Origin: Isoptericola halalbus
GTDB lineage: Bacteria; Actinomycetota; Actinomycetes; Actinomycetales; Cellulomonadaceae
Assembly: GCA_009663185.1 (NCBI GenBank)
Contig: VJZX01000024.1
Location: forward strand, 1-47,887
Length of the DNA stretch: 47,887 nucleotides
Direction of reading: 5' to 3'
The notes under the pieces: generated by a model
Seen by the model: the letters and a program-made list of their open reading frames with translations, nothing else
Database searches by the model: none
Told to the model about the DNA's origin: nothing
Translations under genes and position numbers: made by a program
Shown here: one piece after another, positions 30,649-47,887 of the stretch
Layout of the letters: each line of letters opens with the position of its first letter
Position numbering within the stretch: position 1 is the first letter of the stretch

Positions 30649-31374
30649 TCAGTCGCAGGGCGGCAGCGTGGCGAAGGCGGCGGCGTCGGACAGCAGCTGC
30701 TGCACCGTCGACAACGGGATGAGCAGGGAACGCCCGTCGGACGTCTTGGCGTACACGACGCCGATGACACGGCCGGTGTCGTCGAGCGCGGCCGACCCCG
30801 ACGAGCCGGGCTCGACGGGCGCGTCGGTGACGAGGACCTCGCCCAGATTCTCGTTCAGCGGGTCGGTCGTGCGCCCGATGACCTCACCCTCCGTCACGCT
30901 CAGCGCGCCGCCGTCGGGGTAGCCGACCACGGTGACGAGGTCGCCGGCACGCGGGTCGTTCTCGGCGAGCTCGGGGTACGACGGCAGCGGGTCGTCGGTG
31001 CGGACCACGGCGAGGTCGGCCAGGCCTGCCGTGCTCGCGGCCATGACCTCGATGTCGCGCCCGTCGTAGGTGCTGACCTGCAGCACCTCGGAGTCCGCGA
31101 CGACGTGGCGGTTGGTGATGAGCGTGTGCTCGTCGATGGCGAAGCCCGAGCCGGTCGAGAGCCCGCTGCAGCCGACGTTGCGGATGCGGACCGCCATGCG
31201 CCGGACCGCGTCGAAGCCGTCGGGGGACAGGTTCCCGCCGCCACGCGCGACGAGGCTCGGCGCGACGGTCGGCGTGATGTCGCTGGGCACCGGGTCCGGC
31301 AGTGAGGGCAGCACCGTGCACCCCGCGACGAGGGCGAGCGACGAGGCGAGGACGACGGCGCGACGGCCCCTCAC
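30649..31374 (-). CDS. Trypsin-like serine protease lipoprotein
   Basis: The 241-aa protein has a lipoprotein signal (residues 1-19, RRAVVLASSLALVAGC), so it is anchored outside the membrane. The chymotrypsin/HtrA-type fold shows the triad: His in TLITNRHVVADS (about 91-94), Asp in AGLADLAVV (about 121) and Ser in EPGSSGSAALDD (about 193-196). A pair of cysteines flanks the catalytic unit (VGCSGLSTGSGF and the C-terminal PPCD), a possible disulfide. There is no PDZ domain. The GTG start overlaps the upstream coiled-coil gene by 4 bp. Targets are unknown; surveillance of exported proteins is a guess. Confidence 0.9.
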   Translation of the reverse strand: MRGRRAVVLASSLALVAGCTVLPSLPDPVPSDITPTVAPSLVARGGGNLSPDGFDAVRRMAVRIRNVGCSGLSTGSGFAIDEHTLITNRHVVADSEVLQVSTYDGRDIEVMAASTAGLADLAVVRTDDPLPSYPELAENDPRAGDLVTVVGYPDGGALSVTEGEVIGRTTDPLNENLGEVLVTDAPVEPGSSGSAALDDTGRVIGVVYAKTSDGRSLLIPLSTVQQLLSDAAAFATLPPCD

Positions 31375-32417: not shown

Positions 32418-32446
32418 TTGACAGGGCGCGGCCCACCCGTGATGCT
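32418..32446 (+). promoter_or_regulatory. Promoter of the GH38 gene
   Basis: A perfect -35 TTGACA (32418-32423) is separated by 17 nt from GATGCT (32441-32446), close to TATAAT. An operator-like site follows immediately. A 76-bp leader then runs to the GH38 ATG. Confidence 0.7.
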
Positions 32447-32454
32447 CCACGAAC

Positions 32455-32468
32455 TGTAGCGCTTTAGC
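32455..32468 (+). promoter_or_regulatory. Putative LacI-family operator upstream of the GH38 gene
   Basis: TGTAGCGCTTTAGC lies 8 nt after the -10 box, over the expected transcript start. It matches the site before the sugar-binding protein gene (TAAAGCGGTTTAGC) at 11 of 14 positions and has a central CG, as LacI-type operators do. Confidence 0.6.
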
Positions 32469-32521
32469 GGCGCATGGCGGACACCAGGGGCACCGACGCT
32501 CCGGTCAGACGGAAGGACACC

Positions 32522-35500
32522 ATGCACGACGACGTCACCCTCACCGTGGGCCGCGCGACGCGCGTGCTCGACGAGCGCCTCCGACCGGCGGTGCACGCCA
32601 CGAGCGTGCCGCTCGAGGTCGCGTGGCACGAGCTCCCCGGCGAGCCGGTCCCGCCTGTCGAGGGCCTCGCGCTCGAGATGTCGCCGTACATGGTCGGCAC
32701 GCCGTGGGGTCGCGCGTGGGGGACGACCTGGTTCCGGCTGCGCGGCGTCGTGCCCGCCGAGTGGGCGGGCCGTGCCGTGGAGGCGGTCGTCGACCTCGGC
32801 TTCGACACGAACATGACCGGGTTCCAGTGCGAGGCGCTCGTCTACCAGCCCGACGGCGCGCCCGTGAAGTCGCTCAACCCGCGCAATCAGCACGTACCGG
32901 TCCTCGCCGTGGCCGAGGGCGGGGAGCGCGTCGAGCTCTACCTCGAGGCCGCGTCCAACCCGGTCCTTCTCGACTACCACCCGTTCCTGCCGACGCGCCA
33001 GGGAGACGTCCTGACGTCGTCGCCCCGCCCGCTGTACACGACGCGGCGCGTCGACCTCGCCGTCTTCGAGGAGGAGGTCCACGAGCTGGCCCTCGACGTC
33101 GAGGTGCTCCTGGAGCTTCAGGCCGAGCTGCCCGCGGGCCCGCGGCGGATGCGGGTCCTGCAGGCGCTCGACGACGCGCTCGACGTGCTCGACCTGCAGC
33201 GCATCCCCGAGACGGCCGCGGCGGCGCGGGCCGCGCTCGCCGAGGTGCTCGCGAGCCCTGCCGAGGCGAGCGCCCACGTGATCTCCGCCGTGGGTCACGC
33301 GCACATCGACTCGGCCTGGCTGTGGCCAGTCCGGGAGACGATCCGCAAGGTCGCGCGCACGACGGCGTCGATGACCGACCTGATCGAGCGCACGGACGAG
33401 TTCCTGTACGGGATGTCGAGCGCGCAGCAGTACGCGTGGGTCAAGGAGCACCGCCCCGAGGTCTGGTCGCGGATCGTCGACGCCGTCGCGGCGGGCAGGT
33501 TCCTGCCGCTCGGCGGGATGTGGGTCGAGAGCGACACCGTCATGCCGTCGGGGGAGTCTCTCGTGCGGCAGTTCTCTCAGGGGCAGCGGTTCTTCGAGCG
33601 CGAGCTCGGCGTGCGCCCCCGAGGAGTCTGGCTCCCGGACAGCTTCGGCTACTCGCCGGCGCTCCCGCAGCTCGTGCGGCGCGCGGGCTTCGAGTGGTTC
33701 TTCACCCAGAAGATCTCGTGGAACCAGGTCAACGTGTTCCCACACCACACGTTCCTGTGGGAGGGCATCGACGGGTCGCGCGTGCTGACGCACTTCCCGT
33801 CCATGGACACGTACAACTCGCAGCTCTCCGGCGCCGAGGTCGCCAAGGCCTCGCGGCAGTTCCGCGAGGCACGCCATGCCATGGGGTCGATCGCCCCCGT
33901 GGGTTGGGGTGACGGCGGTGGCGGCACGACCCGCGAGATGGTGGGCAAGGCCCGGCGGCTCGCAGACCTCGAGGGCAGCGCTCGGGTGCACTGGGAGCAC
34001 CCGGACGACTTCTTCGCCCGCACCCGCGCAGAGCTCGAGGACCCGGCAGTCTGGGTCGGTGAGCTGTACCTCGAGCTGCACCGGGCGACGCTGACGTCCC
34101 AGCACGGGACCAAGCAGGGCAACCGCCGCAACGAGCACCTGCTCGTCGAGGCCGAGGCGTGGGCGTCGGCCGCCGAGGTCCGCGTGGGCCTCGAGTACCC
34201 CTACGAGGAGCTCGACGCGCTCTGGCAGCAGGTCCTGCTCCTGCAGTTCCACGACATCCTGCCCGGCACGTCCATCGCCTGGGTCCACCGCGAGGCGGTC
34301 GAGCAGCACGCGGAGGTGACGGCGGCCGCCGAGGCGATCGTGCAGCGCTCGCTCGAGGCCCTCGTGGGGCGGGGGGACGTCCCCCTCGTGGCCAACCCGG
34401 CGCCTGTCGCGCACGAGGGCGTGCCGGCGCTCGGCGTGCTGCCGGCCTCAGACCGGCCCGATGCCGGCGCCGCGACGCTCGAGCGGACCGGCGACGGCTT
34501 CGTGCTGGCCAACGAGCTCGTGCGCGTGAAGGTCAACCGCGACGGGCATGTCGTCTCGGCGGTCGACCGCGGCACGGGGCGAGACGCGATCGCTCCGGGC
34601 CGCGAGGGAAACGTGCTGCAGCTCCACCAGGACTTCCCGAACATGTGGGACGCCTGGGACGTCGACCGCTTCTACCGCAACACCGTCACGGACCTGCGCG
34701 ACGTCGAGTCCGTCGATGCCGTGGTCGACGAGCGCGGCGCCGCCACGGTCACGCTCGAGCGGGCGTTCTCCTCCTCGCGCGTGCGCCAGATCCTGCGCCT
34801 GGAGCCTGGCAGCCGGGTGCTCGAGGTCGAGCAGACGACCGACTGGCACGAGGCCGAGAAGTTCCTCAAGGTCGCCTTCCCGCTCGACGTGCGCGCGGAG
34901 CACACCGCGGCCGAGACGCAGTTCGGGTACCACCGGAGGCCGACGCACACGAACACCAGCTGGGAGGCCGCGAAGTTCGAGACGTCGATGCATCGGTTCG
35001 TGCTCGTCGAGGAGCCCGGGTTCGGCGTCGCGCTCGTCAACGACTCGATCTACGGGCACGACGTCACCCGCGACGTCGCCGAGACCGCCGACGGCGGCAC
35101 CGCCGTCACTACGACGGTCCGCCTCTCCCTCCTCCGGGCACCGCGCTTCCCTGACCCCGAGACCGACCAGGGCACCCAGACCGTGCGCTACGGCCTCGTC
35201 GTCGGGGCCGACGTCGCGGCCGCCACGGAGGCGGGCATCGCGTTCAACGCACGCGAGCGTGCGCTCGTCGGCGCACGCGGCGTCGAGCCGCTCGTGGGGG
35301 TGACCGGCGAAGGCGTCGTGCTCTCGTGCGTCAAGCTGGCCGACGACCGGTCCGGCGATCTCGTGGTGCGCGTCCACGAGGCGCTCGGGCGGCGAGTCAC
35401 CGGTTCCGTCGTGGTGCACGTGCCAGTGACCGACACGCGGACCGTGAACCTGCTCGAGGAGGACCTCGCAGCGCCCGTGGCCACCGTCGGGGCCGACGGA

Positions 35501-35560
35501 GCGGTCTTCGTCGAGCTCGGGCCGTTCGAGGTGCGCACGCTGCGCATGCGTTTGGCCTGA
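32522..35560 (+). CDS. GH38 alpha-mannosidase
   Basis: The 1012-aa enzyme matches bacterial GH38 alpha-mannosidases. An N-terminal beta-rich region (1-250) precedes the catalytic domain with the zinc site VGHAHIDSAWLWPVRET (His261, Asp263) and the nucleophile Asp373 in WLPDSFGYSPALPQL. MWVESDTVMPSGESLVRQF and FHDILPGTSIAW are further family motifs, and the C-terminal beta domains (from about 620) include RRPTHTNTSWEAAKFE. GH38 retaining enzymes release mannose from alpha-1,2/1,3/1,6 linkages. No signal peptide is present, so it acts in the cytoplasm. ATG 32522 is chosen for GGAAGGA about 6 nt upstream; ATG 32474 in frame has none. First gene of the mannoside cluster with its own operator-controlled promoter. 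Confidence 0.93.
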   Translation: MHDDVTLTVGRATRVLDERLRPAVHATSVPLEVAWHELPGEPVPPVEGLALEMSPYMVGTPWGRAWGTTWFRLRGVVPAEWAGRAVEAVVDLGFDTNMTGFQCEALVYQPDGAPVKSLNPRNQHVPVLAVAEGGERVELYLEAASNPVLLDYHPFLPTRQGDVLTSSPRPLYTTRRVDLAVFEEEVHELALDVEVLLELQAELPAGPRRMRVLQALDDALDVLDLQRIPETAAAARAALAEVLASPAEASAHVISAVGHAHIDSAWLWPVRETIRKVARTTASMTDLIERTDEFLYGMSSAQQYAWVKEHRPEVWSRIVDAVAAGRFLPLGGMWVESDTVMPSGESLVRQFSQGQRFFERELGVRPRGVWLPDSFGYSPALPQLVRRAGFEWFFTQKISWNQVNVFPHHTFLWEGIDGSRVLTHFPSMDTYNSQLSGAEVAKASRQFREARHAMGSIAPVGWGDGGGGTTREMVGKARRLADLEGSARVHWEHPDDFFARTRAELEDPAVWVGELYLELHRATLTSQHGTKQGNRRNEHLLVEAEAWASAAEVRVGLEYPYEELDALWQQVLLLQFHDILPGTSIAWVHREAVEQHAEVTAAAEAIVQRSLEALVGRGDVPLVANPAPVAHEGVPALGVLPASDRPDAGAATLERTGDGFVLANELVRVKVNRDGHVVSAVDRGTGRDAIAPGREGNVLQLHQDFPNMWDAWDVDRFYRNTVTDLRDVESVDAVVDERGAATVTLERAFSSSRVRQILRLEPGSRVLEVEQTTDWHEAEKFLKVAFPLDVRAEHTAAETQFGYHRRPTHTNTSWEAAKFETSMHRFVLVEEPGFGVALVNDSIYGHDVTRDVAETADGGTAVTTTVRLSLLRAPRFPDPETDQGTQTVRYGLVVGADVAAATEAGIAFNARERALVGARGVEPLVGVTGEGVVLSCVKLADDRSGDLVVRVHEALGRRVTGSVVVHVPVTDTRTVNLLEEDLAAPVATVGADGAVFVELGPFEVRTLRMRLA

Positions 35561-35569
35561 ACCGGTTTC
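35558..35569 (+). promoter_or_regulatory. Weak third operator-like site at the end of the GH38 gene
   Basis: TGAACCGGTTTC overlaps the GH38 stop and includes the perfect palindrome AACCGGTT. It matches TAAAGCGGTTTA at 9 of 12 positions and lies 58 bp upstream of the stronger site, so it could be an auxiliary operator for repression by looping. It may also be chance. Confidence 0.3.
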
Positions 35570-35588
35570 GTCGGTGGAACGATGCGGC

Positions 35589-35638
35589 TTGACACGGGTC
35601 GGTGCCGACCGGCACCCTGGTGCGGGTAAAGCGGTTTA
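35589..35638 (+). promoter_or_regulatory. Promoter and LacI-family operator of the sugar ABC transporter operon
   Basis: TTGACA (35589-35594) is followed, at a spacing of 17-18 nt, only by a poor -10 (about CACCCT). The operator TAAAGCGGTTTA (35627-35638) begins 32 nt after the -35. The operator is palindromic at 10 of 12 positions around a central CG. The layout repeats that of the GH38 promoter (31 nt from -35 to operator). Confidence 0.65.
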
Positions 35639-35680
35639 GCCCGCGCGCATCGGAGCAACGAAGCACCAGATGGAGGAGCT

Positions 35681-36982
35681 GTGAAGCACAGCCACAGCAG
35701 GATCGGGGCGGGCCTCGCGGCGCTCGCCGTGGGAGTCTCGCTCACCGGCTGCGCGCTCGACGGCGCCGGCGGCACCGGAAGCACGCCCGAGGACTCCGTG
35801 GACGCGTCGGGCGAGGTGACCGGCGAGGTCTCGCTCCAGACCTGGGCGCTCAAGCCCAACTTCACCGAGTACGTCGAGGGCGTCATCGACGCGTTCGAGC
35901 AGGAGTACCCGGGCACGACCGTGACCTGGCTCGACCAGCCGGGCGAGGGGTACTCGGAGAAGGTCCTGTCGCAGGCGTCGGCCGGCGAGCTGCCCGACGT
36001 GACCAACCTGCCTCCGGACTTCGCTCTGGCGCTCGCGCGCGAAGGCATGCTGCTCGACCTCGAGGGCGTGGACGACGAGCTCGAGAGCACCTACGTCGCG
36101 GGCGGCCTCGGTGCGTACCAGTACGCGGGCATCGAGGGCACGTTCGGGTACCCGTGGTACCTCAACACCGACGTCAACTACTGGAACTCCGAGATCCTGG
36201 AGGCCGGCGGCCTCGACCCGCAGGACGCGCCCACCAGCCTCGACGAGCTCATCGAGCAGGCGCGCACCCTCGAGGCGGCCACCGGCGGCAAGCAGTACCT
36301 CATGAGCCGCAAGCCCGGCCTCGGCGACTTCGCGGCCGAGGGCGTGGCGATCCTCGACGAGGACGGCACCGAGTTCGTCTTCAACACCCCCGAGGCCGTC
36401 GCCCTCCTCGACACGTACCGCGACGCGTACGCCGAGGGCCTGATGCCGCAGGACGTCCTCACGGACGCCTACCTCGGCAACAGCCAGCTGTTCACCGAGG
36501 GAAAGGTCGGCTGGTCCACCGGCGGTGGCAACTTCATCGCCGGCGTGCTCGAGAACAACCCGTCGCTCGAGGGCAAGATCGTCCCGTCGCCCGCGATGGG
36601 CACGCCGCCGCTGTACGTCCAGGGCGTCTCGGTCTCGAAGTCGTCGAAGAACGTCCCGGCCGCGATCGCGCTCGCCCGGTTCCTCACCAACGCGGAGAAC
36701 CAGGAGGCGTTCGCCAAGGAGGTCCCCGGTATCTTCCCGTCGACGATCGCCTCCCAGGAGAACCCCGAGTTCGCCGAGAGCGACGGCACGCCGGCGCAGG
36801 ACGCCAAGGTCATGGCCTTCACGTCGCTCACCGAGGCGCAGGTCCTCCAGCCCGTCGAGGTGACCGAGGCCATGTCGACCGTCGTCAACCAGCAGATCGC
36901 CGCCGCCATCTCGGGCGAGGTGACCTCGCAGCAGGCGCTCGACACCGCCGTCGAGCGCTGCAACGAGCTCCTGTCCCAGTGA
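35681..36982 (+). CDS. ABC transporter sugar-binding lipoprotein
   Basis: This 433-aa extracellular solute-binding protein (family 1, carbohydrate uptake CUT1) captures the sugar outside the membrane. It has a lipoprotein signal ending in SLTGC (Cys at about 23), a Gly/Ser/Asp-rich linker and VSLQTWALKPNFTEYVEGVI at the start of lobe 1. YPWYLNTDVNYWNSEIL follows at about 153-169, and the C-terminal lobe includes VSKSSKNVPAAIALARFLTN. Aromatic residues (Trp, Tyr) are plentiful, as expected for oligosaccharide stacking. The GTG start has a strong GGAGGAG about 3-9 nt upstream. The placement between GH38 and GH5/GH92 genes points to mannose-containing oligosaccharides. Confidence 0.93.
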   Translation: MKHSHSRIGAGLAALAVGVSLTGCALDGAGGTGSTPEDSVDASGEVTGEVSLQTWALKPNFTEYVEGVIDAFEQEYPGTTVTWLDQPGEGYSEKVLSQASAGELPDVTNLPPDFALALAREGMLLDLEGVDDELESTYVAGGLGAYQYAGIEGTFGYPWYLNTDVNYWNSEILEAGGLDPQDAPTSLDELIEQARTLEAATGGKQYLMSRKPGLGDFAAEGVAILDEDGTEFVFNTPEAVALLDTYRDAYAEGLMPQDVLTDAYLGNSQLFTEGKVGWSTGGGNFIAGVLENNPSLEGKIVPSPAMGTPPLYVQGVSVSKSSKNVPAAIALARFLTNAENQEAFAKEVPGIFPSTIASQENPEFAESDGTPAQDAKVMAFTSLTEAQVLQPVEVTEAMSTVVNQQIAAAISGEVTSQQALDTAVERCNELLSQ

Positions 36983-36993
36983 TGCGACCCGTG

Positions 36994-37015
36994 CGGGCGG
37001 CCGCGACGCCGCCCG
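36994..37015 (+). terminator. Intercistronic hairpin between binding protein and permease genes
   Basis: A perfect 8-bp stem, CGGGCGGC (36994-37001) and GCCGCCCG (37008-37015), has a 6-nt loop and no T-run. Such hairpins after binding-protein genes often reduce downstream expression or protect the upstream message, which keeps the binding protein in excess over permeases. Confidence 0.45.
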
Positions 37016-37040
37016 GCGCGGGCATCCGGAGGTGACCCGC

Positions 37041-38048
37041 ATGGCCGAGACCACCGACGCCCGCACCGAACGCGCGACGAACGGCACCCGGCGCGTGCCG
37101 CCGGCGGAGGGGACGACGCCGGTCGCCCCGACCGGACAGTCCCGGGCCGCCGCGGCGCAGTCCGGCACGGTGGCGGCCCGGACCCACGCCTGGTTCACGC
37201 CCTGGCTGCTGTGCCTGCCCGCGATCGTGTTCCTCGCCGCCTTCAACCTGTGGCCGTCGGCCAACACCGTGTTCCTCGCGTTCACGAACGTGCGGCCCCT
37301 GTCGGGCGGCGAGCTGGTGGGTCTCGCCAACTTCGAGCGCATGCTGACCGACGACCAGCTCGCGACGGCGCTCGTGAACTCGATCGTCTACATGCTCGTG
37401 TGCCTGCCCTTCCTGCTGCTGGTCCCGCTCGCGCTCGCGCTGCTTGTCGAGAAGAAGCTGCCGGGGATCGCCTTCTTCCGGACGGCCTTCTACACCCCGG
37501 TCGTCGCGTCGGCCGTGGTGGTGGCGCTCATCTGGGGGTGGATGCTCGACGACCGCGGCGTCATCAACGGCATGGCGCTGCGCCTCGGCGTCGTCTCGGA
37601 AGCGATCCCGTTCCTGACCGACCGGTGGCTCGTGCTGTTCAGCGCGATCAGCCTGACCGTCTGGAAGGGTCTCGGCTACTACATGATCATCTACCTCTCG
37701 GCGCTCGGCGGCGTCGGTCGTGAGCTGCACGAGGCGGCCGCCGTCGACGGCGCGAGTGCCTGGCGTCGGTTCTGGTCCGTGACGGTGCCAGGCGTGCGCA
37801 ACACGATGCTGCTCGTCGCGGTGCTCATCACCGTGTCGGCGCTGCGCGTCTTCTCCGAGCTCTTCGTCCTCACGAACGGCACGGGCGGCATCGGGGGGCG
37901 CGACGTCTCGGTGGTGTTCCTCATCCAGATGTACGCACGCGGCTTCAGCGGGAACCTCGGCTACGCGTCGGCGCTGTCGATCCTGCTGTTCCTGATCACC
38001 CTCGGCCCGCTGCTGCTCATCGCACGCATCAACAGGAAGGGAGCGTGA
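37041..38048 (+). CDS. Sugar ABC transporter permease (MalF-like)
   Basis: The 335-aa protein has a long cytoplasmic N-terminus (about 1-45) and six predicted transmembrane helices (first at about 53-73, WLLCLPAIVFLAAFNLW). The EAA loop that docks the ATPase reads ELHEAAAVDGASAWRRFWSVTVP (about 231-253). It is one half of the CUT1 channel with the next gene. ATG 37041 is preferred because GGAGGTGA ends about 5 nt before it; the in-frame GTG 37032 lies within that site. The downstream permease starts 1 nt after its stop. Confidence 0.93.
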   Translation: MAETTDARTERATNGTRRVPPAEGTTPVAPTGQSRAAAAQSGTVAARTHAWFTPWLLCLPAIVFLAAFNLWPSANTVFLAFTNVRPLSGGELVGLANFERMLTDDQLATALVNSIVYMLVCLPFLLLVPLALALLVEKKLPGIAFFRTAFYTPVVASAVVVALIWGWMLDDRGVINGMALRLGVVSEAIPFLTDRWLVLFSAISLTVWKGLGYYMIIYLSALGGVGRELHEAAAVDGASAWRRFWSVTVPGVRNTMLLVAVLITVSALRVFSELFVLTNGTGGIGGRDVSVVFLIQMYARGFSGNLGYASALSILLFLITLGPLLLIARINRKGA

Positions 38049-38049
38049 C

Positions 38050-38955
38050 GTGGTGACCTACCCGACGGCGACGACGCCCGCGGTCGCGCGCGCCCCCGTC
38101 ACGCCCACCTCGGGCGCACGCGGCTTCTCGACGATGTCGCGCCGCGAGACCGTGGTGCGCTACGCGCTGCTCGTGGTCGTGCTGCTGATCACGATCGGCC
38201 CGTTCCTCTGGCAGCTCTCGACGTCTCTCAAGGGCTCCGGCGAGGACGTCTACACGGCGACTCCGACGTTCGTGCCGCAGGACCCGACCTTCGACAACTA
38301 CCTCGCCGCCTTCGAGACCGTGCCGGTGCTCGGCTTCGCCCGCAACTCGCTCGTCGTCGCCGGGATCACGATCGCCGGCAACGCGATCGGTGCCACCATG
38401 GCCGGCTACGCGCTCGCCCGGCTGCGGTTCCGCGGTGCGCGGCTCATCATGGGCGCGATCCTCGCGACCATGCTGCTGCCGGGCGAGGCGACGATCGTCG
38501 CCCAGTACCTGACCATCCGTGAGCTCGGCCTCGCCGACACGCTGCTGGGCGTGGCGCTGCCCGGCGCCATCGGGATGATCAACGTGCTCCTCATGCGCAC
38601 GGCGTTCCTCAACATCCCGCCGGAGCTCGACGAGGCGGCGATCGTCGACGGCGCCAACGCCTGGCAGCGGTTCTGGCGTATCGGACTGCCCAACGCGAAG
38701 GGGATGCTCGCCGTCATCACGATCTTCGCGTTCATCGGCGCGTGGGACGACTTCCTGTGGCCGCTCATCGTGCTCACCACGCCCGAGAACTTCACCCTGA
38801 CGGTCGGGCTGCAGTACCTCTCCGGGGTGTTCGCCAACAACCCGCGCGTCGTCGCGGCGGGCACGATGATCGCGTTCATCCCGATCGTCGTGTTCTTCGC
38901 GGCCCTCCAGCGCTACTTCTTCCGCGGGGTCGACGAGGGCGCGATCAAGGGATGA
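38050..38955 (+). CDS. Sugar ABC transporter permease (MalG-like)
   Basis: The 301-aa protein has six predicted transmembrane helices (first at about 38-56, YALLVVVLLITIGPFLWQL) and the EAA motif ELDEAAIVDGANAWQRFWRIGLP (about 195-217). It pairs with the preceding MalF-like subunit. The start is GTG 38050 or GTG 38053, with GGAAGGGAG upstream. No ATP-binding subunit follows; many actinobacteria share one multitasking ATPase (MsiK/MsmK type) encoded elsewhere. Confidence 0.93.
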   Translation: MVTYPTATTPAVARAPVTPTSGARGFSTMSRRETVVRYALLVVVLLITIGPFLWQLSTSLKGSGEDVYTATPTFVPQDPTFDNYLAAFETVPVLGFARNSLVVAGITIAGNAIGATMAGYALARLRFRGARLIMGAILATMLLPGEATIVAQYLTIRELGLADTLLGVALPGAIGMINVLLMRTAFLNIPPELDEAAIVDGANAWQRFWRIGLPNAKGMLAVITIFAFIGAWDDFLWPLIVLTTPENFTLTVGLQYLSGVFANNPRVVAAGTMIAFIPIVVFFAALQRYFFRGVDEGAIKG

Positions 38956-39021
38956 GGCGGCCATGAACGCCGGGCGTGCCACGCTGGTTCGCGAAGGAGT
39001 GACGCAGTTGAGGGAGCGAGC

Positions 39022-40056
39022 GTGACGAGAGCCCGGTCCGGTGGAGGCCGGCCGACCATCGACGACATCGCCCAGCAGGTCGGGGTCTCCAAGACGGCAG
39101 TGTCGTTCGCCCTGAACGGCCGGGCGGGCATCAGCGACGAGACCCGCCGGCGCATCCTCGACGCGGTCGAGGAGCTCGGGTGGGTCCCGCATCGTGCCGC
39201 CCGTGCCCTGAGCGGCGCGCGCACCGACACCGTCGGGCTCGTCGTCGCGCGCCCCGCACGGACGCTCGGCGTCGAGCCGTTCTTCGCGCAGCTGGTCTCA
39301 GGACTTCAGGCGCGTCTGTCGACGGACACCGTCTCGCTCCAGCTGCTGGTGGTCGAGGACGTGGCCGCAGAGGTAGCGGTGTACGAGCGGTGGGCAGCCG
39401 AGCGTCGCACGGACGGTGTCGTCCTCCTCGACCTCGAGGTCGACGACCCGCGTCCGGCCGCCCTCGGGCGCCTGCGGCTGCCGGCCGTCCTGCTCGGAGG
39501 CGACGGCACGCCTGGACCCGTGCCCGCGGTCTTCGTCGACGACTTCGAGGCGATGACCAGCATTGCCGAGCATCTCGTGGCGTTGGGTCACCGCCGCATC
39601 GGTCACGTGGGCGGCATCGCGTCCTACGTGCACTCCGTGCGCCGCGTCGAGGCCCTGCAAGCCGTGGCGCGCCGGCACGGCCTGGAGATCGTCACCGTGG
39701 CCACCGACTTCTCGCAGCGGGAGTCGGCCGACGCGACACGTCAGCTCGTGCACGCAGAGAAGCCCCTGACGGCGATCGTCTACGACTCGGACGTCGAGGC
39801 GCTCGCCGGCGTCACGGTGCTCTCCGAGGAGGGCCTGCGCATCCCGGAGGACGTCTCGGTCGTGTCGTTCGACGACTCCGAGCTCGCCCGCCTCGTGCGG
39901 CCGGCGCTCACCGCCCTGACCCGTGACACCTTCGCGCTCGGGGAGCAGGTGGCAGAAGTCCTGTTGTCCCTGCTCGGCGGCGTTCCCGTCGACGACGTCG
40001 TCCTCGCGCCGCTGCCCGTCCTCACGCCCCGGGCGAGCACCGGCCCTCGGCAGTGA
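39022..40056 (+). CDS. LacI-family transcriptional regulator
   Basis: The 344-aa protein has the LacI DNA-binding helix-turn-helix and hinge (about 10-62: TIDDIAQQVGVSKTAVSFAL, NGRAGISDETRRRILDAVEELG, AARALSG) and a periplasmic-binding-protein-like ligand domain. Landmarks in the ligand domain are DGVVLLDLEVDDPRP, HRRIGHVGGIASYVHSVRRVEAL and ISVVSFDDSELARLVRPALTAL-type strands. It probably represses the GH38 and transporter promoters at the shared operator and is released by an imported mannoside. The GTG start has GAGGGAG about 5-11 nt upstream. It lies between the transporter and the two hydrolase genes. Confidence 0.93.
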   Translation: MTRARSGGGRPTIDDIAQQVGVSKTAVSFALNGRAGISDETRRRILDAVEELGWVPHRAARALSGARTDTVGLVVARPARTLGVEPFFAQLVSGLQARLSTDTVSLQLLVVEDVAAEVAVYERWAAERRTDGVVLLDLEVDDPRPAALGRLRLPAVLLGGDGTPGPVPAVFVDDFEAMTSIAEHLVALGHRRIGHVGGIASYVHSVRRVEALQAVARRHGLEIVTVATDFSQRESADATRQLVHAEKPLTAIVYDSDVEALAGVTVLSEEGLRIPEDVSVVSFDDSELARLVRPALTALTRDTFALGEQVAEVLLSLLGGVPVDDVVLAPLPVLTPRASTGPRQ

Positions 40057-40113
40057 CGGACCGGGCGTGACCGGACGACGACCCTGACCCTGACGGACGA
40101 ACCGAGGAGACCC

Positions 40114-41331
40114 ATGCGCTTCGGCGCCAACTACACGCCTGGTCACGGATGGTTCCACGCGTGGCTCGACCTGGACGTCGACGCGGTGCGCCGCGACCTG
40201 GACGCCGTGGCCGCGCTCGGTCTCGACCACGTGCGGGTCTTCCCGCTGTGGGACGTGCTGCAACCCAACCGGACGCTGATCCGCGAGCGTGCAGTGGCCG
40301 ACGTCGTCGCCGTCGTCGACGCCGCGCACGAGGCCGGGCTCGACGCCAGCGTCGACGTGCTGCAGGGCCACCTGTCGAGCTTCGACTTCCTGCCGTCGTG
40401 GGTGCTGACCTGGCATCGGCGCAACCTCTTCACGGACCCCGACGTCGTGACCGCGCAGGAGCGCCTCGTCGAGGCACTCGGCGCCGCCCTCGAGGGCCAC
40501 CCGGGGTTCCTCGGGCTCACCCTGGGCAACGAGACGGCGCAGTTCGCCAAGGAGGGGCACCCGGACCGCCAGGCTCTGACCCCCGCGCAGGCCGACGCCT
40601 GGTTGGAGCGCCTGCTCGGTGCGGCCCGGCGCGCGGCGCCCCGCTCGCGACACGCGCACTCGTTCGACGACGACGTGTGGTTCGTGGACTCGAGCGCCGT
40701 CACGCCTGAGCACGCCGTGCGGCACGGTGACGTCACCACGGTCCACTCGTGGGTGTTCACCGGCGTGGCCCGGCACTTCCCGGTGGGGCATCCCGCCTAC
40801 GCGCTGTTCGCGCGCTACCTGCTCGAGCTGGCAGCCGCGTGGGCCGGCGACGGCGTACGGCCCCTGTGGCTGCAGGAGGTCGGGGCGCCCGCGCCGCACG
40901 TGGGTGCCGAGAACGTGGTCGCGTTCGCGACGAGGACGCTCGAGCACGCGGTGCGGCAGCCCGGCCTGTGGGGTGTCACGTGGTGGTGCTCGCACGACGT
41001 CGACCGCAGCCTGGCCGACTTCCCGGAGCTCGAGTACTCGCTCGGTCTGCTGACCGCCGACGGCCTGCCCAAGCCCGTGGGGCTCGCGGTGCGCGACGCG
41101 CTGCCGGGCCTGCGTGAGCTCGCCGGGCGCACGGCGAGCTCGGGCTCCGGCGCGCCGGGCGGCGGCGAGGTGATCGAGCTGCCCTGCGACGACGACGGCC
41201 GCGTCGTGCGGTCGCTCACGGCGCCCGGCTCCGAGCTGTTCGCCGCGTGGGTCGACGCGGCGGCCGCGGGCAGCCCGCCGCGTCTGGCCGTCCCGACCGG
41301 TGCCGGGACGCGCGTGGAGCGGGTCGCGTGA
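40114..41331 (+). CDS. GH5-family glycoside hydrolase, probable beta-mannosidase (GH5_18-like)
   Basis: The 405-aa protein is a clan GH-A barrel. The acid/base is Glu140 in LGLTLGNETAQF and the nucleophile Glu255 in PLWLQEVGAP. Other landmarks are MRFGANYTPGHGWFHAWLD at the N-terminus, VRVFPLWDVLQPNRTLI and a conserved WWCSHDVDRSL. These resemble GH5 subfamily 18, some members of which, as I recall, cleave the Man-beta-1,4-GlcNAc bond of the N-glycan core. Subfamily is assigned from memory of sequence patterns and needs checking. No signal peptide, so cytoplasmic. ATG 40114 has GAGGAG about 7 nt upstream. The stop overlaps the GH92 GTG by 4 bp. Confidence 0.8.
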   Translation: MRFGANYTPGHGWFHAWLDLDVDAVRRDLDAVAALGLDHVRVFPLWDVLQPNRTLIRERAVADVVAVVDAAHEAGLDASVDVLQGHLSSFDFLPSWVLTWHRRNLFTDPDVVTAQERLVEALGAALEGHPGFLGLTLGNETAQFAKEGHPDRQALTPAQADAWLERLLGAARRAAPRSRHAHSFDDDVWFVDSSAVTPEHAVRHGDVTTVHSWVFTGVARHFPVGHPAYALFARYLLELAAAWAGDGVRPLWLQEVGAPAPHVGAENVVAFATRTLEHAVRQPGLWGVTWWCSHDVDRSLADFPELEYSLGLLTADGLPKPVGLAVRDALPGLRELAGRTASSGSGAPGGGEVIELPCDDDGRVVRSLTAPGSELFAAWVDAAAAGSPPRLAVPTGAGTRVERVA

Positions 41332-44300
41332 CAGTGTGCCCCGAGGTCCTCGAAGGACACGGGTACGGGCTCGCACGGACCGCGTGGGGGACGTCCTTCG
41401 AGGCCGGCGACCCGCTCCCGCCCGTAGTGCACGGCGGGTTGCAGCTGGCGCTCGGCGGCGGCCCTGCGCATGTCCCGGCTGGACGCCCTGGCGTCGGTCT
41501 GACGGGCGTCCGTTCCTTGCGGGTCGGTGCCGATGCCGACGCGCTGGCGACCGGCCCGCGGCGTGCGCTGCTGGCCGACGGGCTCGACGTGCTCGTCGAG
41601 CCTGGCGCGGAGCTGCGCTGGGCAGTCTGCCCGGTCCTCGACGACGGGCTGACCTACCGGTCCACGTGGGTGGCCGTCGACCTTCGGCTCGACGACGGCA
41701 CCTGGCTCGCCGCGTCAGGGCCGCGCGACCAGTACGGCGTTGCCGCGACCGCCGACGGCCAGGGCGCCGCGAAGATCCTCGTGCCCGACCACTGGAATCT
41801 CGTGCGGGTCGACCTGTCCGCCGCGACCGGACGGACCGTGACGGCCGTGGCGGTGGTGGTCGTACCCGCGCACGGTATCCCGCCGGGCTCGGTGGAGGCC
41901 TGGCTCGACGACGTCGCGATCGGCACGCCCGAGCGGCGTGTCGTCCGTGGGCTCGTCGACCACGTCGACACCCGCCGCGGAACCCACTCGACCGGCGCGT
42001 ACTCGCGGGGCAACACGGTGCCGGCCGCCGCCGTCCCGAACGGCGCCGCCCTGTGGGTCCCGCTGACCGACGGCGCCTCCGGGTCGTGGCTCTACGCGTG
42101 GGCCGCGCACAACGGCCCGGACAACCGGCCACGCCTGCACGGCGTCGCGGTGTCGCATCTCCCCAGTCCCTGGATGGGCGACCGCGCCCAGCTGGCCGTG
42201 CACCTCGTCCCGGACGCGGGCGGGTCGGCCGTCGGCGTGCCGGACGCGTCGCTCGACGCGCGGGGACGGGCCTTCGACCACGCGGGAGAGCTCGCCCGCC
42301 CGCACCACTACGGCGTCGCGCTCGACGGTGGTGCGCGCATCGACGTGACCCCGACCGACCACGGTGCCGTCCTGCGGCTCACCTTCCCGGCGGGCGACGC
42401 GGTCGGGCACGTTCTGCTCGACGCCGTGAGCACGCAGGGTGCGGCCGAGCCCGGGCGGCCGGTGCATCTGCGGCTCGAGCCCGAGGCCGGCACGATCACC
42501 GGCTGGAGCGACCACGGCAGCGGGCTGTCGGTCGGGCGCAGCCGCATGTACGTCGTGGGTCGGCTCGACCGTCCCGCGCTGCGGGCCGGGCGGGCACGCG
42601 GTGACCGTCCGCACGCGCGGTATGCGACCGTCGACCTGTGCGAGCCAGCCGGCGGTCGCACGGTCGAGCTGCGGCTCGCCACGTCGTTCGTCGGCGTCGA
42701 GCAGGCATGGCGCAACTTCGCCCGGGAGCTCGAGGGCGTCCCGTTCGCGACCGTCGAGGCGCGTGCCCGGGCCGCGTGGGAGGAACGCCTGAGCGTCGTC
42801 GAGGTCGACGGCGCCACGGACGACCAGCTCACGACCCTCTACTCGTGCCTCTACCGGCTCAATCTGTATCCGACGTCGCAGACCGAGGACGCGGGCGAGC
42901 CGGGGCGGCCCCGGCCGGTGCACGCGTCGCCTGTGCTGCCGCCCGCCGGGCCGTCGACCGACGAGCGCACGGGCGCGGTCGTGGTCGACGGGGAGATCTT
43001 CGTCAACCACGGCTTCTGGGACACCTACCGCACGTGCTGGCCCGCGTACGCGCTGCTGTACCCGGAGCTCGCGGGGCGCCTCGCCGACGGCTTCGTCCAG
43101 CAGTACCGAGAGGCGGGCTGGATCGCACGGTGGTCGTCGCCCGGCTACGCCGACCTCATGACTGGCACGAGCTCCGACGTCGCGTTCGCCGACGTGTTCG
43201 TGCGCGGTGTGAGCCTGCCCGACCCGGTGGCGGCATACGATGCCGGCCTGCGCAACGCGACCGTGGTTCCGCCGCACGCGAGCGTCGGACGTCATGGACA
43301 GGAGCACTTCCTACTCCACGGCTGGGTGCCGCGGGAGGTGCACGAGAGCGTCTCGTGGAGCCTCGAGGGCTACGTCAACGACGCCGGGCTGGCCGCCATG
43401 GCGCGACGGCTCGCCGTGAGCGACGCCGTCCCCGAGCGACGGCGGCGCGCCCTGCTCGACGAGGCCGCCTACCTCGCGCGGCGCGCGCTCGGCTACGTCC
43501 ACCTGTTCGACCCCGTCACGGGGTTCTTCCGGGGGCGAGGCGCGGACGGCACCGTCGTCGACCCGGCGGAGTTCGACCCGGCGGAGTGGGGCGGCGACTA
43601 CACGGAGTCGAACGCGTGGAACTTCGCCTTCCACGCCCCGCACGACCCCGCGGGCCTCGCGCGGCTGCACGGCGGCCCCGAGGGCCTGGCCGCGGTTCTC
43701 GGGAGGTTCTTCGCCACGCCCGAGCGGGCCGACCGGCCCGGAAGCTACGGGTCCGTGATCCACGAGATGTCCGAGGCGCGCGACGTGCGCCTGGGCCAGC
43801 TCGGCCAGAGCAACCAGGTCTCGCACCACGTCCCCTACACGTGGCTCGCCGCGGGGCGGCCGGACCGGGCCCAGGAGACCGTCCGGGAGATCCTCGAGCG
43901 GCTGTGGACGGGCAGCGAGCTGGGCCAGGGCTACCACGGCGACGAGGACAACGGCGAGATGTCCGCGTGGTACGTGCTCTCGGCGCTCGGGCTGTACCCG
44001 CTGGAGGTGGGCACGCCGAGATGGGCCCCGGGCTCGCCGCTCTTCCGGCGCGCCGTCGTGCACCGACCCGGGGGCGACCTCGTCCTCGAGGCGCCCGGCG
44101 CCGAGGACGGGCACCGGTACGTGGCCGGCGTCGCCGTCGACGGCCGTGAGCTCGACGCGCCCGTCCTCGACCACCGTGAGCTCGCAGGCGGAGCCCGCGT
44201 GCGGTTCCGGATGGCGGCCGAGCCGTCGGACTGGGGCGCGGAGCTCGCCGCGGCCGCCGAACCTGACCGCGTGCCCTGGCACGACGTCTCGGGCACCGGT

Positions 44301-44663
44301 GTGTGGCGCAGGCCCGGGGGACGGGCCGTGCCCCGGCTCGCGGACGACGAGCTCGGCCGGGCCGCGGACGTCGGGCCAGGCCGGCTGACCTGGTCCACTG
44401 GCGCCAGTGGCCACGGACATCTCCTGCACGCGTACACGCTCGTCTCGGCCGCTGACGGGCGCCCCGCACCGACGTCGTGGCGGCTCTCGGTGCGCACGGT
44501 TGGAGGGACGTGGCGCGACGTCGACGCCCGCGACGGCGAGGAGTTCCGCTGGGCCGCTCAGCTCCGCCCGTTCGTGCTCAGCGAGCCCGTGGCGTTCGAC
44601 GAGGTACGGCTCGACCTGTACGACGCAGGCGCGCTCGCCCAGGTCGAGCTGCTCGTCGAGTGA
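41328..44663 (+). CDS. GH92 family alpha-mannosidase
   Basis: The 1111-aa protein has an N-terminal beta-sandwich domain (about 1-205, with FEAGDPLPP and a possible sugar-binding role), then a GH92 module. Motifs are GFWDTYRTCWPAYALLYPE, GTSSDVAFADVFV, YTESNAWNFAFHAPHD with the proposed catalytic acid Glu760, QSNQVSHHVPYTW and HGDEDNGEMSAWYVLSALGLYP with Asp872 and Asp874 as the paired bases. GH92 enzymes are calcium-dependent exo-alpha-mannosidases. The usual GNEPSHH reads SNQVSHH (Gln830). No signal peptide is seen, unlike many GH92 enzymes, so it should act inside the cell. A C-terminal beta domain ends the protein. The GTG start is coupled to the GH5 stop. Confidence 0.92.
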   Translation: MTVCPEVLEGHGYGLARTAWGTSFEAGDPLPPVVHGGLQLALGGGPAHVPAGRPGVGLTGVRSLRVGADADALATGPRRALLADGLDVLVEPGAELRWAVCPVLDDGLTYRSTWVAVDLRLDDGTWLAASGPRDQYGVAATADGQGAAKILVPDHWNLVRVDLSAATGRTVTAVAVVVVPAHGIPPGSVEAWLDDVAIGTPERRVVRGLVDHVDTRRGTHSTGAYSRGNTVPAAAVPNGAALWVPLTDGASGSWLYAWAAHNGPDNRPRLHGVAVSHLPSPWMGDRAQLAVHLVPDAGGSAVGVPDASLDARGRAFDHAGELARPHHYGVALDGGARIDVTPTDHGAVLRLTFPAGDAVGHVLLDAVSTQGAAEPGRPVHLRLEPEAGTITGWSDHGSGLSVGRSRMYVVGRLDRPALRAGRARGDRPHARYATVDLCEPAGGRTVELRLATSFVGVEQAWRNFARELEGVPFATVEARARAAWEERLSVVEVDGATDDQLTTLYSCLYRLNLYPTSQTEDAGEPGRPRPVHASPVLPPAGPSTDERTGAVVVDGEIFVNHGFWDTYRTCWPAYALLYPELAGRLADGFVQQYREAGWIARWSSPGYADLMTGTSSDVAFADVFVRGVSLPDPVAAYDAGLRNATVVPPHASVGRHGQEHFLLHGWVPREVHESVSWSLEGYVNDAGLAAMARRLAVSDAVPERRRRALLDEAAYLARRALGYVHLFDPVTGFFRGRGADGTVVDPAEFDPAEWGGDYTESNAWNFAFHAPHDPAGLARLHGGPEGLAAVLGRFFATPERADRPGSYGSVIHEMSEARDVRLGQLGQSNQVSHHVPYTWLAAGRPDRAQETVREILERLWTGSELGQGYHGDEDNGEMSAWYVLSALGLYPLEVGTPRWAPGSPLFRRAVVHRPGGDLVLEAPGAEDGHRYVAGVAVDGRELDAPVLDHRELAGGARVRFRMAAEPSDWGAELAAAAEPDRVPWHDVSGTGVWRRPGGRAVPRLADDELGRAADVGPGRLTWSTGASGHGHLLHAYTLVSAADGRPAPTSWRLSVRTVGGTWRDVDARDGEEFRWAAQLRPFVLSEPVAFDEVRLDLYDAGALAQVELLVE

Positions 44664-44698
44664 GGTCCGCGGCGCCGGGAAGGGCGCCGCGGACCTCA
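44661..44698. terminator. Bidirectional 16-bp hairpin terminator between GH92 and katA
   Basis: A perfect inverted repeat, TGAGGTCCGCGGCGCC (44661-44676) and its complement (44683-44698), has loop GGGAAG. The left arm includes the GH92 stop codon. The right arm ends 11 nt before the katA stop. It can serve both convergent transcripts. A short T-run is lacking, as is usual in GC-rich genomes. Confidence 0.75.
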
Positions 44699-46762: not shown

Positions 46763-47137
46763 ACCTGTGTCCGCGATGCGGTCGTCGCCGCCGCCTCACC
46801 AGGCCGCCGGCTGACGAGTCGTGCGTGTCACGCTCGCCGGCCTCACACCGTCGGAGGCGCTCGTGCTAGCCTTGAGCGCTGACCGACCCGTACGTCCCCG
46901 GACGTGCGGGTGCATCAAGTGGAGTCCATCCCACCCGAGCACCGACCGTGCCGCCCCGGAGCGGCCGACAGGAGCCGGGTCCGGTCGGGCGAGGCGCTCT
47001 CGCGGCGCGTCGCTCTGCCCCGGTCGCCGGCGCGTCGCGCGCGCCCGGCGTCGGTACGACGGCCTCCACCTGTGCTCAGGGCGGGGGCCATTCCTGCGTC
47101 CTGGCGGTCGTACCGACGAGTTCCTAGGAGCATCACC
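46763..47137 (+). promoter_or_regulatory. infC promoter and long structured 5' leader
   Basis: No gene is supported here. TAGCCT at 46867-46872 is a plausible -10 box, which would give a leader of about 259 nt. The leader contains a hairpin CCCGTACGTCC / GGACGTGCGGG (46887-46897 and 46900-46910). It also has a perfect 12-bp long-range repeat, CGTCGGTACGAC (47049-47060) and GTCGTACCGACG (47107-47118). This second stem closes 5 nt before the TAGGAG ribosome binding site (47125-47130). The arrangement suggests translational or attenuation control of infC. Confidence 0.6.
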
Positions 47138-47887
47138 ATCAGCGAGCCTCGCATCAACGACCGGATCCGCGTCCCCGAGGTCCGGCTCATCGGCCCTGGC
47201 GGGGAGCAGGTCGGCGTGGTTGCCACGGCGGTCGCCCTGAAGCTTGCCCAGGACGCCGACCTCGACCTCGTCGAGGTCGCCCCGGACGCCCGCCCGCCCG
47301 TCGCCAAGCTCATGGACTTCGGCAAGTTCAAGTACGAGTCCGACATGAAGGCGCGAGAGGCGCGGCGCAACCAGGCGAACACGGTTCTCAAGGAGATCCG
47401 GTTCCGCCTCAAGATCGACCCGCACGACTACGGCACCAAGAAGGGCCACGTCGAGCGCTTCCTGGCCGCGGGCGACAAGGTCAAGGTCATGATCATGTTC
47501 CGCGGCCGCGAGCAGTCGCGCCCGGAGATGGGCGTGCGCCTGCTGCAGCGTCTGGCCGAGGACGTCGCGGAGCTCGGCTTCGTCGAGTCGATGCCCAAGC
47601 AGGACGGCCGCAACATGACCATGGTCCTCGGGCCGGTCAAGAAGAAGGCCGACGCCAAGAGCGAGCAGCGCAAGCGCTCCGCCGAGGTCAACGCCCAGCG
47701 CAAGACCAAGTCGGAGGCCAAGGCCGAGGCACGCGCCCGGGAGGTCGCTGACGAGGTGGCCCACGACGGGTCGGCGCAGGAGGTTCCCGCGCCCGAGGCC
47801 TCTGCCGAGCCCGCTCCCGCCCAGCCGGTGCCGGCGCCCGCGCAGGCCGAGCCCGCGCAGGCCGAGCCCGAGCCCGCGCAGCCCGAG
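47138..47887 (+). CDS. infC: Translation initiation factor IF-3 (3' end beyond window)
   Basis: IF-3 binds the 30S subunit and checks initiator tRNA and start codon. The frame reads [20 protein letters not shown] (N-domain), [27 protein letters not shown], a linker helix, [47 protein letters not shown] and [15 protein letters not shown] (C-domain, ending near residue 170). A Lys-rich then Pro/Ala/Glu-rich tail of more than 80 residues runs off the window with tandem 15-bp repeats. The likely start is ATC 47138, 7 nt after AGGAG; infC commonly uses rare start codons. An in-frame GTG at 47072 would add 22 residues but lies in the leader hairpin and has no ribosome binding site. Confidence 0.92.
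47836..47886 (+). repeat. Tandem 15-bp repeat in the infC 3' region
   Basis: GCCCGCGCAGGCCGA occurs at 47836-47850 and again at 47851-47865. After a 6-bp GCCCGA insert a diverged copy follows at 47872-47886. It encodes repeated Pro-Ala-Gln-Ala-Glu units in the IF-3 tail and continues to the window end. Confidence 0.8.

Follow-up and report, generated by a model that had tools for sequence, protein, structure and literature searches.

A putative LacI-controlled locus for importing high-mannose N-glycan fragments and degrading them in the cytoplasm of Isoptericola halalbus

Higgins et al. are said to have described in 2021 a GH38/GH5_18 N-glycan locus in Streptomyces and Bifidobacterium. An actinobacterial locus of this type is also carried by Cutibacterium acnes 266, where, according to PMC6160142, GH38 adjoins GH5_18 and is accompanied by sugar ATP-binding cassette (ABC) transporter genes, a regulator, GH20 and GH18, the hydrolases being leaderless. 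In Bifidobacterium longum, high-mannose chains are described as being imported first and then attacked intracellularly by exo-mannosidases, namely three GH38 enzymes and GH125 (PMC10154615), while Streptococcus pneumoniae combines GH92, GH38 and the N-glycan-fragment ABC importer NgtS in a system in which the glycoconjugate is acted on by GH92 before EndoD, and the sugars taken up are Man5/Man3GlcNAc (PMC5215778). Here, we describe a related locus of Isoptericola halalbus in a stretch of 47,887 nucleotides (contig VJZX01000024.1 of assembly GCA_009663185.1), hereafter the window. It forms contig C28 in a draft genome of 4.10 Mb and 110 contigs that is rated 100% complete. The locus lies on the forward strand at 32.5-44.7 kb and encodes GH38, a solute-binding protein (SBP), two permeases, a LacI-family regulator, a GH5 enzyme and GH92. 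We estimate a probability of roughly 0.78 that, under the control of LacI, it serves to import fragments of high-mannose N-glycans, which may be scavenged, and to degrade them in the cytoplasm. Below, G000 denotes the window's own genome, other G-labels denote genomes of its family, and L-labels denote loci.

With GH38, GH5_18, a CUT1 importer and LacI, the locus has the gene set of actinobacterial N-glycan loci, including the leaderless hydrolases of C. acnes 266, but it has GH92 and neither an endoglycosidase nor GH20 among its genes. It would share with B. longum the order of import and intracellular trimming, using one GH38 and GH92, and it differs from S. pneumoniae in that its GH92 is leaderless and GH5_18 is present. 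Because GH38, GH5_18 and an importer already constitute a published actinobacterial N-glycan pathway, most of the biology of the locus is known. The closest loci, from Cellulosimicrobium cellulans DE0111 (L005, identical to L111) and genome G163 (L114), have the same genes with GH92 directly after GH5_18 (best tblastn segments 63% and 61% identical, respectively); both also encode, close to GH92, an exported protein of EndoT-like or EndoH type whose gene is preceded by an operator match, and the window lacks such a gene. The I. halalbus locus is distinguished by its leaderless GH92, where B. longum has additional GH38 enzymes and GH125 and S. pneumoniae a GH92 that acts outside the cell. In addition, no releasing enzyme was detected in G000. 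The suggestion, made in an earlier reading of the sequence alone, that the locus is a distinct variant of N-glycan use is thus upheld as regards the added GH92 and the lack of a detected endoglycosidase, but the core pathway is published and close relatives share GH92.

Enzymes, importer and regulator

Pfam was run on the seven open reading frames (ORFs) of the locus, and NCBIfam was also used. The GH38 ORF opens at 32474, and its likely start at 32522, which fits the N-termini of relatives, gives a gene at 32522..35560 (+); the product is hit by each of the four GH38 domain models, for the N, middle and C domains, and its nearest PDB sequence is the alpha-mannosidase 7UFR (E=7e-236; group 7UFR-7UFU). 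GH92, at 41328..44663 (+), scores above the cut-off for the N and catalytic domains (PF17678, PF07971), and its start overlaps the GH5_18 stop codon (GTGA). Its nearest PDB sequence is NnGH92, an alpha-1,2-mannosidase, and its segments dytEsn, gdeDng and vIHEms align with E533 (acid), D644 (base) and H584/E585 of BT3990. The His-Glu pair is described as giving BT3990 its alpha-1,2 preference, and the conserved residues suggest that the window's GH92 is likewise an alpha-1,2-type alpha-mannosidase. The two alpha-mannosidase families named by the sequence-only reading are therefore both borne out by Pfam and PDB matches.

For the GH5 ORF at 40114..41331 (+), neither Pfam nor NCBIfam gave a hit at E<=0.001, so its subfamily was assigned from PDB sequences and a tree. 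The nine best PDB matches (E 4e-133 to 2e-99) are ScGH5_18 twice, 6GVB, BlGH5_18 three times, BlMan5B twice, which we take to be a GH5_18 member, and one entry called "Glycosyl hydrolase"; the first is ScGH5_18 7LR7 (E=4.4e-133), and the exo-beta-1,4-mannosidase 6GVB of C. acnes scores E=1.7e-126. The tenth, at E=8.6e-18, is the endo-beta-mannanase 7BOB. Both catalytic glutamates noted earlier are aligned, as E140 (LGNET) and E255 (LQEVG); chain 7LR8 has an alanine at the position of E140. The protein clearly belongs to GH5_18 on these comparisons, as had been proposed. According to PMC6160142, 6GVB splits Man-GlcNAc, and the window's enzyme probably acts in the same way, as an exo-beta-1,4-mannosidase on Man-beta-1,4-GlcNAc.

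All three hydrolases appear to lack a signal peptide, as the sequence-only reading had stated. Their peak 13-residue N-terminal hydropathy, a measure distinct from SignalP, is 0.85-1.29, compared with 1.81-2.32 in four exported proteins (the SBP, one EndoH, one EndoT-like protein and the chitinase). The importer consists of a CUT1 SBP with a lipoprotein-like N-terminus (LTGC; 35681..36982, +) and ABC permeases 1 (37032..38048, +) and 2 (38050..38955, +), followed by the LacI-family regulator (39022..40056, +). Pfam found no transport ATPase among the seven ORFs; CUT1 importers usually share one ATPase. Altogether, Pfam and the PDB sequence search confirm the originally described set of GH38, CUT1 importer, LacI, GH5 and GH92 on one strand.

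A putative palindromic operator at the importer promoter

The locus contains a TTGACA -35-like box before GH38 (32418..32423, +) and a second one before the SBP gene (35589..35594, +), making two promoters likely rather than one, and a box of this sequence also stands ahead of the SBP-gene operator in L111, L112 and L114. A promoter scan of the window reported no complete sigma-70 -35/-10 pair. The operator is the palindrome CTAAASCGSTTTAG, which was first picked out by eye from promoters of the window and its relatives and then matched with up to two mismatches. The window has three matches, all ahead of the GH38 or SBP gene (shuffled mean 0.01): the LacI-type operator CTGTAGCGCTTTAG before GH38 (32454..32467, +; two mismatches), the operator-like CTGAACCGGTTTCG overlapping the GH38 stop codon (35557..35570, +; two mismatches) and the LacI-type operator GTAAAGCGGTTTAG before the SBP gene (35626..35639, +; one mismatch). 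Throughout G000, four places match, three of them inside this locus. The fourth (C34:100450-100463; L158 5951) lies between a glyoxalase-family gene and a gene for a small protein that starts in a leader-like way and has no Pfam match, with no hydrolase gene beside it, and is probably there by chance.

Conservation was counted in 75 held-out named loci, a set that excludes L005 and four loci inspected by eye; L003, which is among the 75, is identical to the inspected L110 but has no SBP match. An operator is found upstream of the SBP gene in 57/59 of these loci, compared with 0/59 for the reversed control, and upstream of LacI in 59/62, often in the same divergent region. Matches are rare upstream of GH38 (5/71), GH5_18 (2/74) and the permeases (1/60 and 1/63), and for the endoglycosidases they precede GH85 in 18/43, EndoT in 3/3 and EndoH in 0/1; over all 101 loci examined, two of five EndoH genes have one. 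The reversed pattern has no match in 1,478,495 bases. These loci are related, so that the counts are not independent, while the contrast between genes is internal to them. We infer that LacI binds operators of the CTAAASCGSTTTAG type. The importer-promoter operator is a feature defined in this analysis and not taken from print, and a literature search with three exact 12-base operator strings returned no paper on this subject. The signature makes N-glycan regulons, including unlinked endoglycosidases, findable in actinobacterial genomes.

Proposed pathway, endoglycosidase searches and rival readings

From gene content and order, subfamily, active-site residues, operator conservation and the endoglycosidase misses, all direct results, we infer a substrate, an order of cuts, LacI binding and scavenging. 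In our model, the lipoprotein SBP and the two permeases would take up oligosaccharides that carry one GlcNAc at the reducing end, the natural guess being Man5-9GlcNAc1; import of N-glycan fragments would follow, by analogy, from the known function of relatives. GH92 would then strip alpha-1,2-mannoses in the cytoplasm, GH38 would remove alpha-1,3- and alpha-1,6-mannoses, and GH5_18 would split the remaining Man-beta-1,4-GlcNAc into mannose and GlcNAc. LacI would occupy the operators just downstream of the two TTGACA promoters that precede the GH38 and SBP genes, until released by a sugar that is imported or arises as an intermediate. This operator is also present, in some relatives, ahead of the gene for an exported endo-beta-N-acetylglucosaminidase. 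A leaderless GH92 would widen the known handling of high-mannose chains by Gram-positive bacteria.

The locus itself encodes no endoglycosidase, compared with 52/80 named loci that hold GH85, EndoH or EndoT (>=90 bits), so that such an enzyme is common but not universal. Genome-wide searches of G000 gave no match for GH85, GH76 or the EndoT type, and none for the EndoH type among the 10 of 12 candidates scored; the sole GH18 match is chitinase-like, its best PDB relative being a chitinase (E 6e-106). The original proposal that the first cut is made elsewhere thus holds and is sharpened. Because no releasing enzyme was detected, the organism may scavenge fragments freed by others, and keeping the importer and intracellular enzymes would then amount to a possible "public goods" form of glycan use.

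Among the 23 family genomes with GH5_18, GH85 is present in 3, a strong EndoH-type match in 4 and an EndoT-type match in 9, and 14 have at least one of the three. The GH85 search covered the 23 together with 27 genomes from the named set of 80 (16/50 positive overall), while EndoH-type matches occur in 7/221 family genomes, the 3 beyond the 23 being weak. The nine genomes without any of the three types are G000, G137, G211, G071, G186 (83% complete), G088, G208, G100 and G035; G071, like G000, has GH92 in its locus. In L114 and L120, a gene near GH92 encodes a protein with a leader, for which Endo H is the top PDB match (E 9e-105 and 1e-77). The best match of the corresponding L111 protein is the GH18 endoglycosidase 4AC1 (E 3e-59), closely trailed by 2Y8V, a putative class III chitinase (E 4e-54), and we therefore call it EndoT-like and regard its activity as less sure. 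A crude leader rule scores EndoH as export-like in 5/5, EndoT in 5/5 and GH85 in 35/50. L159 and L160 (G204 and G205) also have an EndoH-GH92 pair, at distances of ~18 and 30 kb on the upstream side of GH5_18, with operator matches before both genes in L160 and, by eye, weaker look-alikes in L159.

Several observations weigh against our reading. The best solved match of the SBP, 6WPM (E=6e-39), is a "substrate-binding protein" without an assigned ligand, so that the ligand cannot be read from the sequence. The cytoplasm is poor in free Ca2+, which GH92 enzymes are described as holding in the active site. The S. pneumoniae GH92 is modelled as extracellular (PMC10154615, PMC5215778). Genome-wide in G000, the reversed control pattern is as frequent as the operator, with four hits per strand, which puts the count at the chance level and leaves the clustering in two promoters as the sole evidence; moreover, 25/43 held-out GH85 promoters have no operator match, although the importer promoter may also serve some GH85 genes. 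With regard to scavenging, 9/23 family GH5_18 genomes lack all three endoglycosidase types, and scavenging is therefore not required to explain the miss. A search for the PNGase F C-domain found no match in G000 and none in its controls, and in a 110-contig draft an endoglycosidase could sit in a gap or belong to another family.

These last points favour an alternative that we consider doubtful, namely that the organism is an ordinary, complete N-glycan degrader whose own endoglycosidase is of an unseen type or lies in a gap. In line with it, of the five family genomes whose locus includes GH92, three encode an exported protein of EndoH or EndoT-like type nearby; however, the genome is rated complete, the GH85, GH18, EndoH and EndoT searches yield only the chitinase-like GH18, and the sole operator match outside the locus adjoins the glyoxalase-family gene. 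Use of beta-mannan or beta-glucan oligosaccharides through GH5 is very improbable: the GH5 family as a whole takes in mannanases and glucanases, and 7BOB is among the matches, but nine GH5_18-type or unnamed entries rank far above it, and two alpha-mannosidase neighbours do not suit a beta-mannan pathway. An alpha-mannan locus, in which GH92 and GH38 would trim imported yeast or fungal alpha-mannan oligosaccharides and GH5_18 would be incidental, is also unlikely. Bacteroides GH92 and GH38 are described as acting on alpha-mannan (PMC10154615), and NnGH92, the nearest structure, as active on yeast alpha-mannan (PMC10167667). Nevertheless, GH92 is single-copy in G000, and GH5_18 overlaps GH92 and is common to the 80 named loci, mostly with GH38, its characterised relatives acting on the N-glycan core; we set alpha-mannan use aside because G000 gave no GH76 match.

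Distribution and neighbouring features

Scanning named genomes yielded 346 relatives of GH5_18, and the analysis used the best 80 loci; some are broken by contig ends, and counts per locus are therefore lower bounds. GH38 beside GH5_18 recurs across the 80, GH85 lies within 47, and GH92, which is rare in such loci, within a single one, that of C. cellulans (tblastn >100 bits). In the window's family, GH5_18 occurs in 23/221 genomes. The loci of 19 of the 23 were read (the window and 20 regions in 18 other genomes, a set without G186, G189, G192 and G100), and GH92 is present in five: G000, G026, G071, G163 and G147. As far as their accessible text goes, PMC11475409, PMC9120177 and PMC11163044 list CAZy families by genome and give no gene locus; Higgins 2021 and Cordeiro 2022 could mention GH92 in a GH5_18 locus.

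A maximum-likelihood tree built from 100 GH5_18 rows groups the window with L114 (98/77), then with Xylanimicrobium L003 (98/82) and then with Cellulosimicrobium (99/97). Within this six-row clade GH92 is missing from L003 only, and the simplest account would be that GH92 joined once and was lost in L003. L120 (G147, same genus) falls outside the clade beside a very long branch, making its place unsure; its GH92 is 37% identical and may have joined independently. More broadly, we tentatively suggest that this lineage made the N-glycan locus a scavenger by coupling a cytoplasmic GH92 to GH5_18 and importing whole Man8-9GlcNAc, with some members, including the window's, having lost the exported endoglycosidase, and that nearly all such Actinomycetota importer loci are under one LacI through CTAAASCGSTTTAG.

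Other loci in the tree have different surroundings. L003/L110 (Xylanimicrobium pachnodae), whose GH5_18 groups with that of the window, has a GH38-GH5_18 pair without a closely related importer adjoining it and without a GH92 or endoglycosidase match. A second GH5_18 clade of eight rows (100/100) comprises L119 and L121-L127 (G194, G097, G185, G193, G190, G088, G135 and G137); it has a LacI gene, in 7/8 a different CUT1 importer (permeases 27-33% identical), and no GH38 in the stretch read. L009 (NZ_JADHDY010000019.1), filed under Sporosarcina beigongshangi (Bacillota), has a GH38-GH5_18 pair nested on short branches in an Arthrobacter clade, representing either a recent transfer or a contaminated assembly.

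Downstream of the locus, a catalase gene on the minus strand converges on GH92. Between the two lies a 16-bp inverted repeat (44661..44698, no strand assigned) that folds at -41.8 kcal/mol (50 bases) and is a possible terminator. The sequence-only reading had the locus bounded by a TTGACA promoter and this 16-bp terminator; the box at 32418-32423 and the stem are real, but a second TTGACA is present, and the hairpin has no T-run and was not reported as a terminator by the promoter/terminator scan. An Rfam scan of the window gave no match. Upstream of the locus, at 30649-31374 (-), is a gene for a trypsin-like peptidase with a lipoprotein-like N-terminus, and at 47125-47153 (+) an IF-3 gene (IF3_N and IF3_C domains) apparently starts at a non-NTG codon, in the region AGGAGCATCACCATC.

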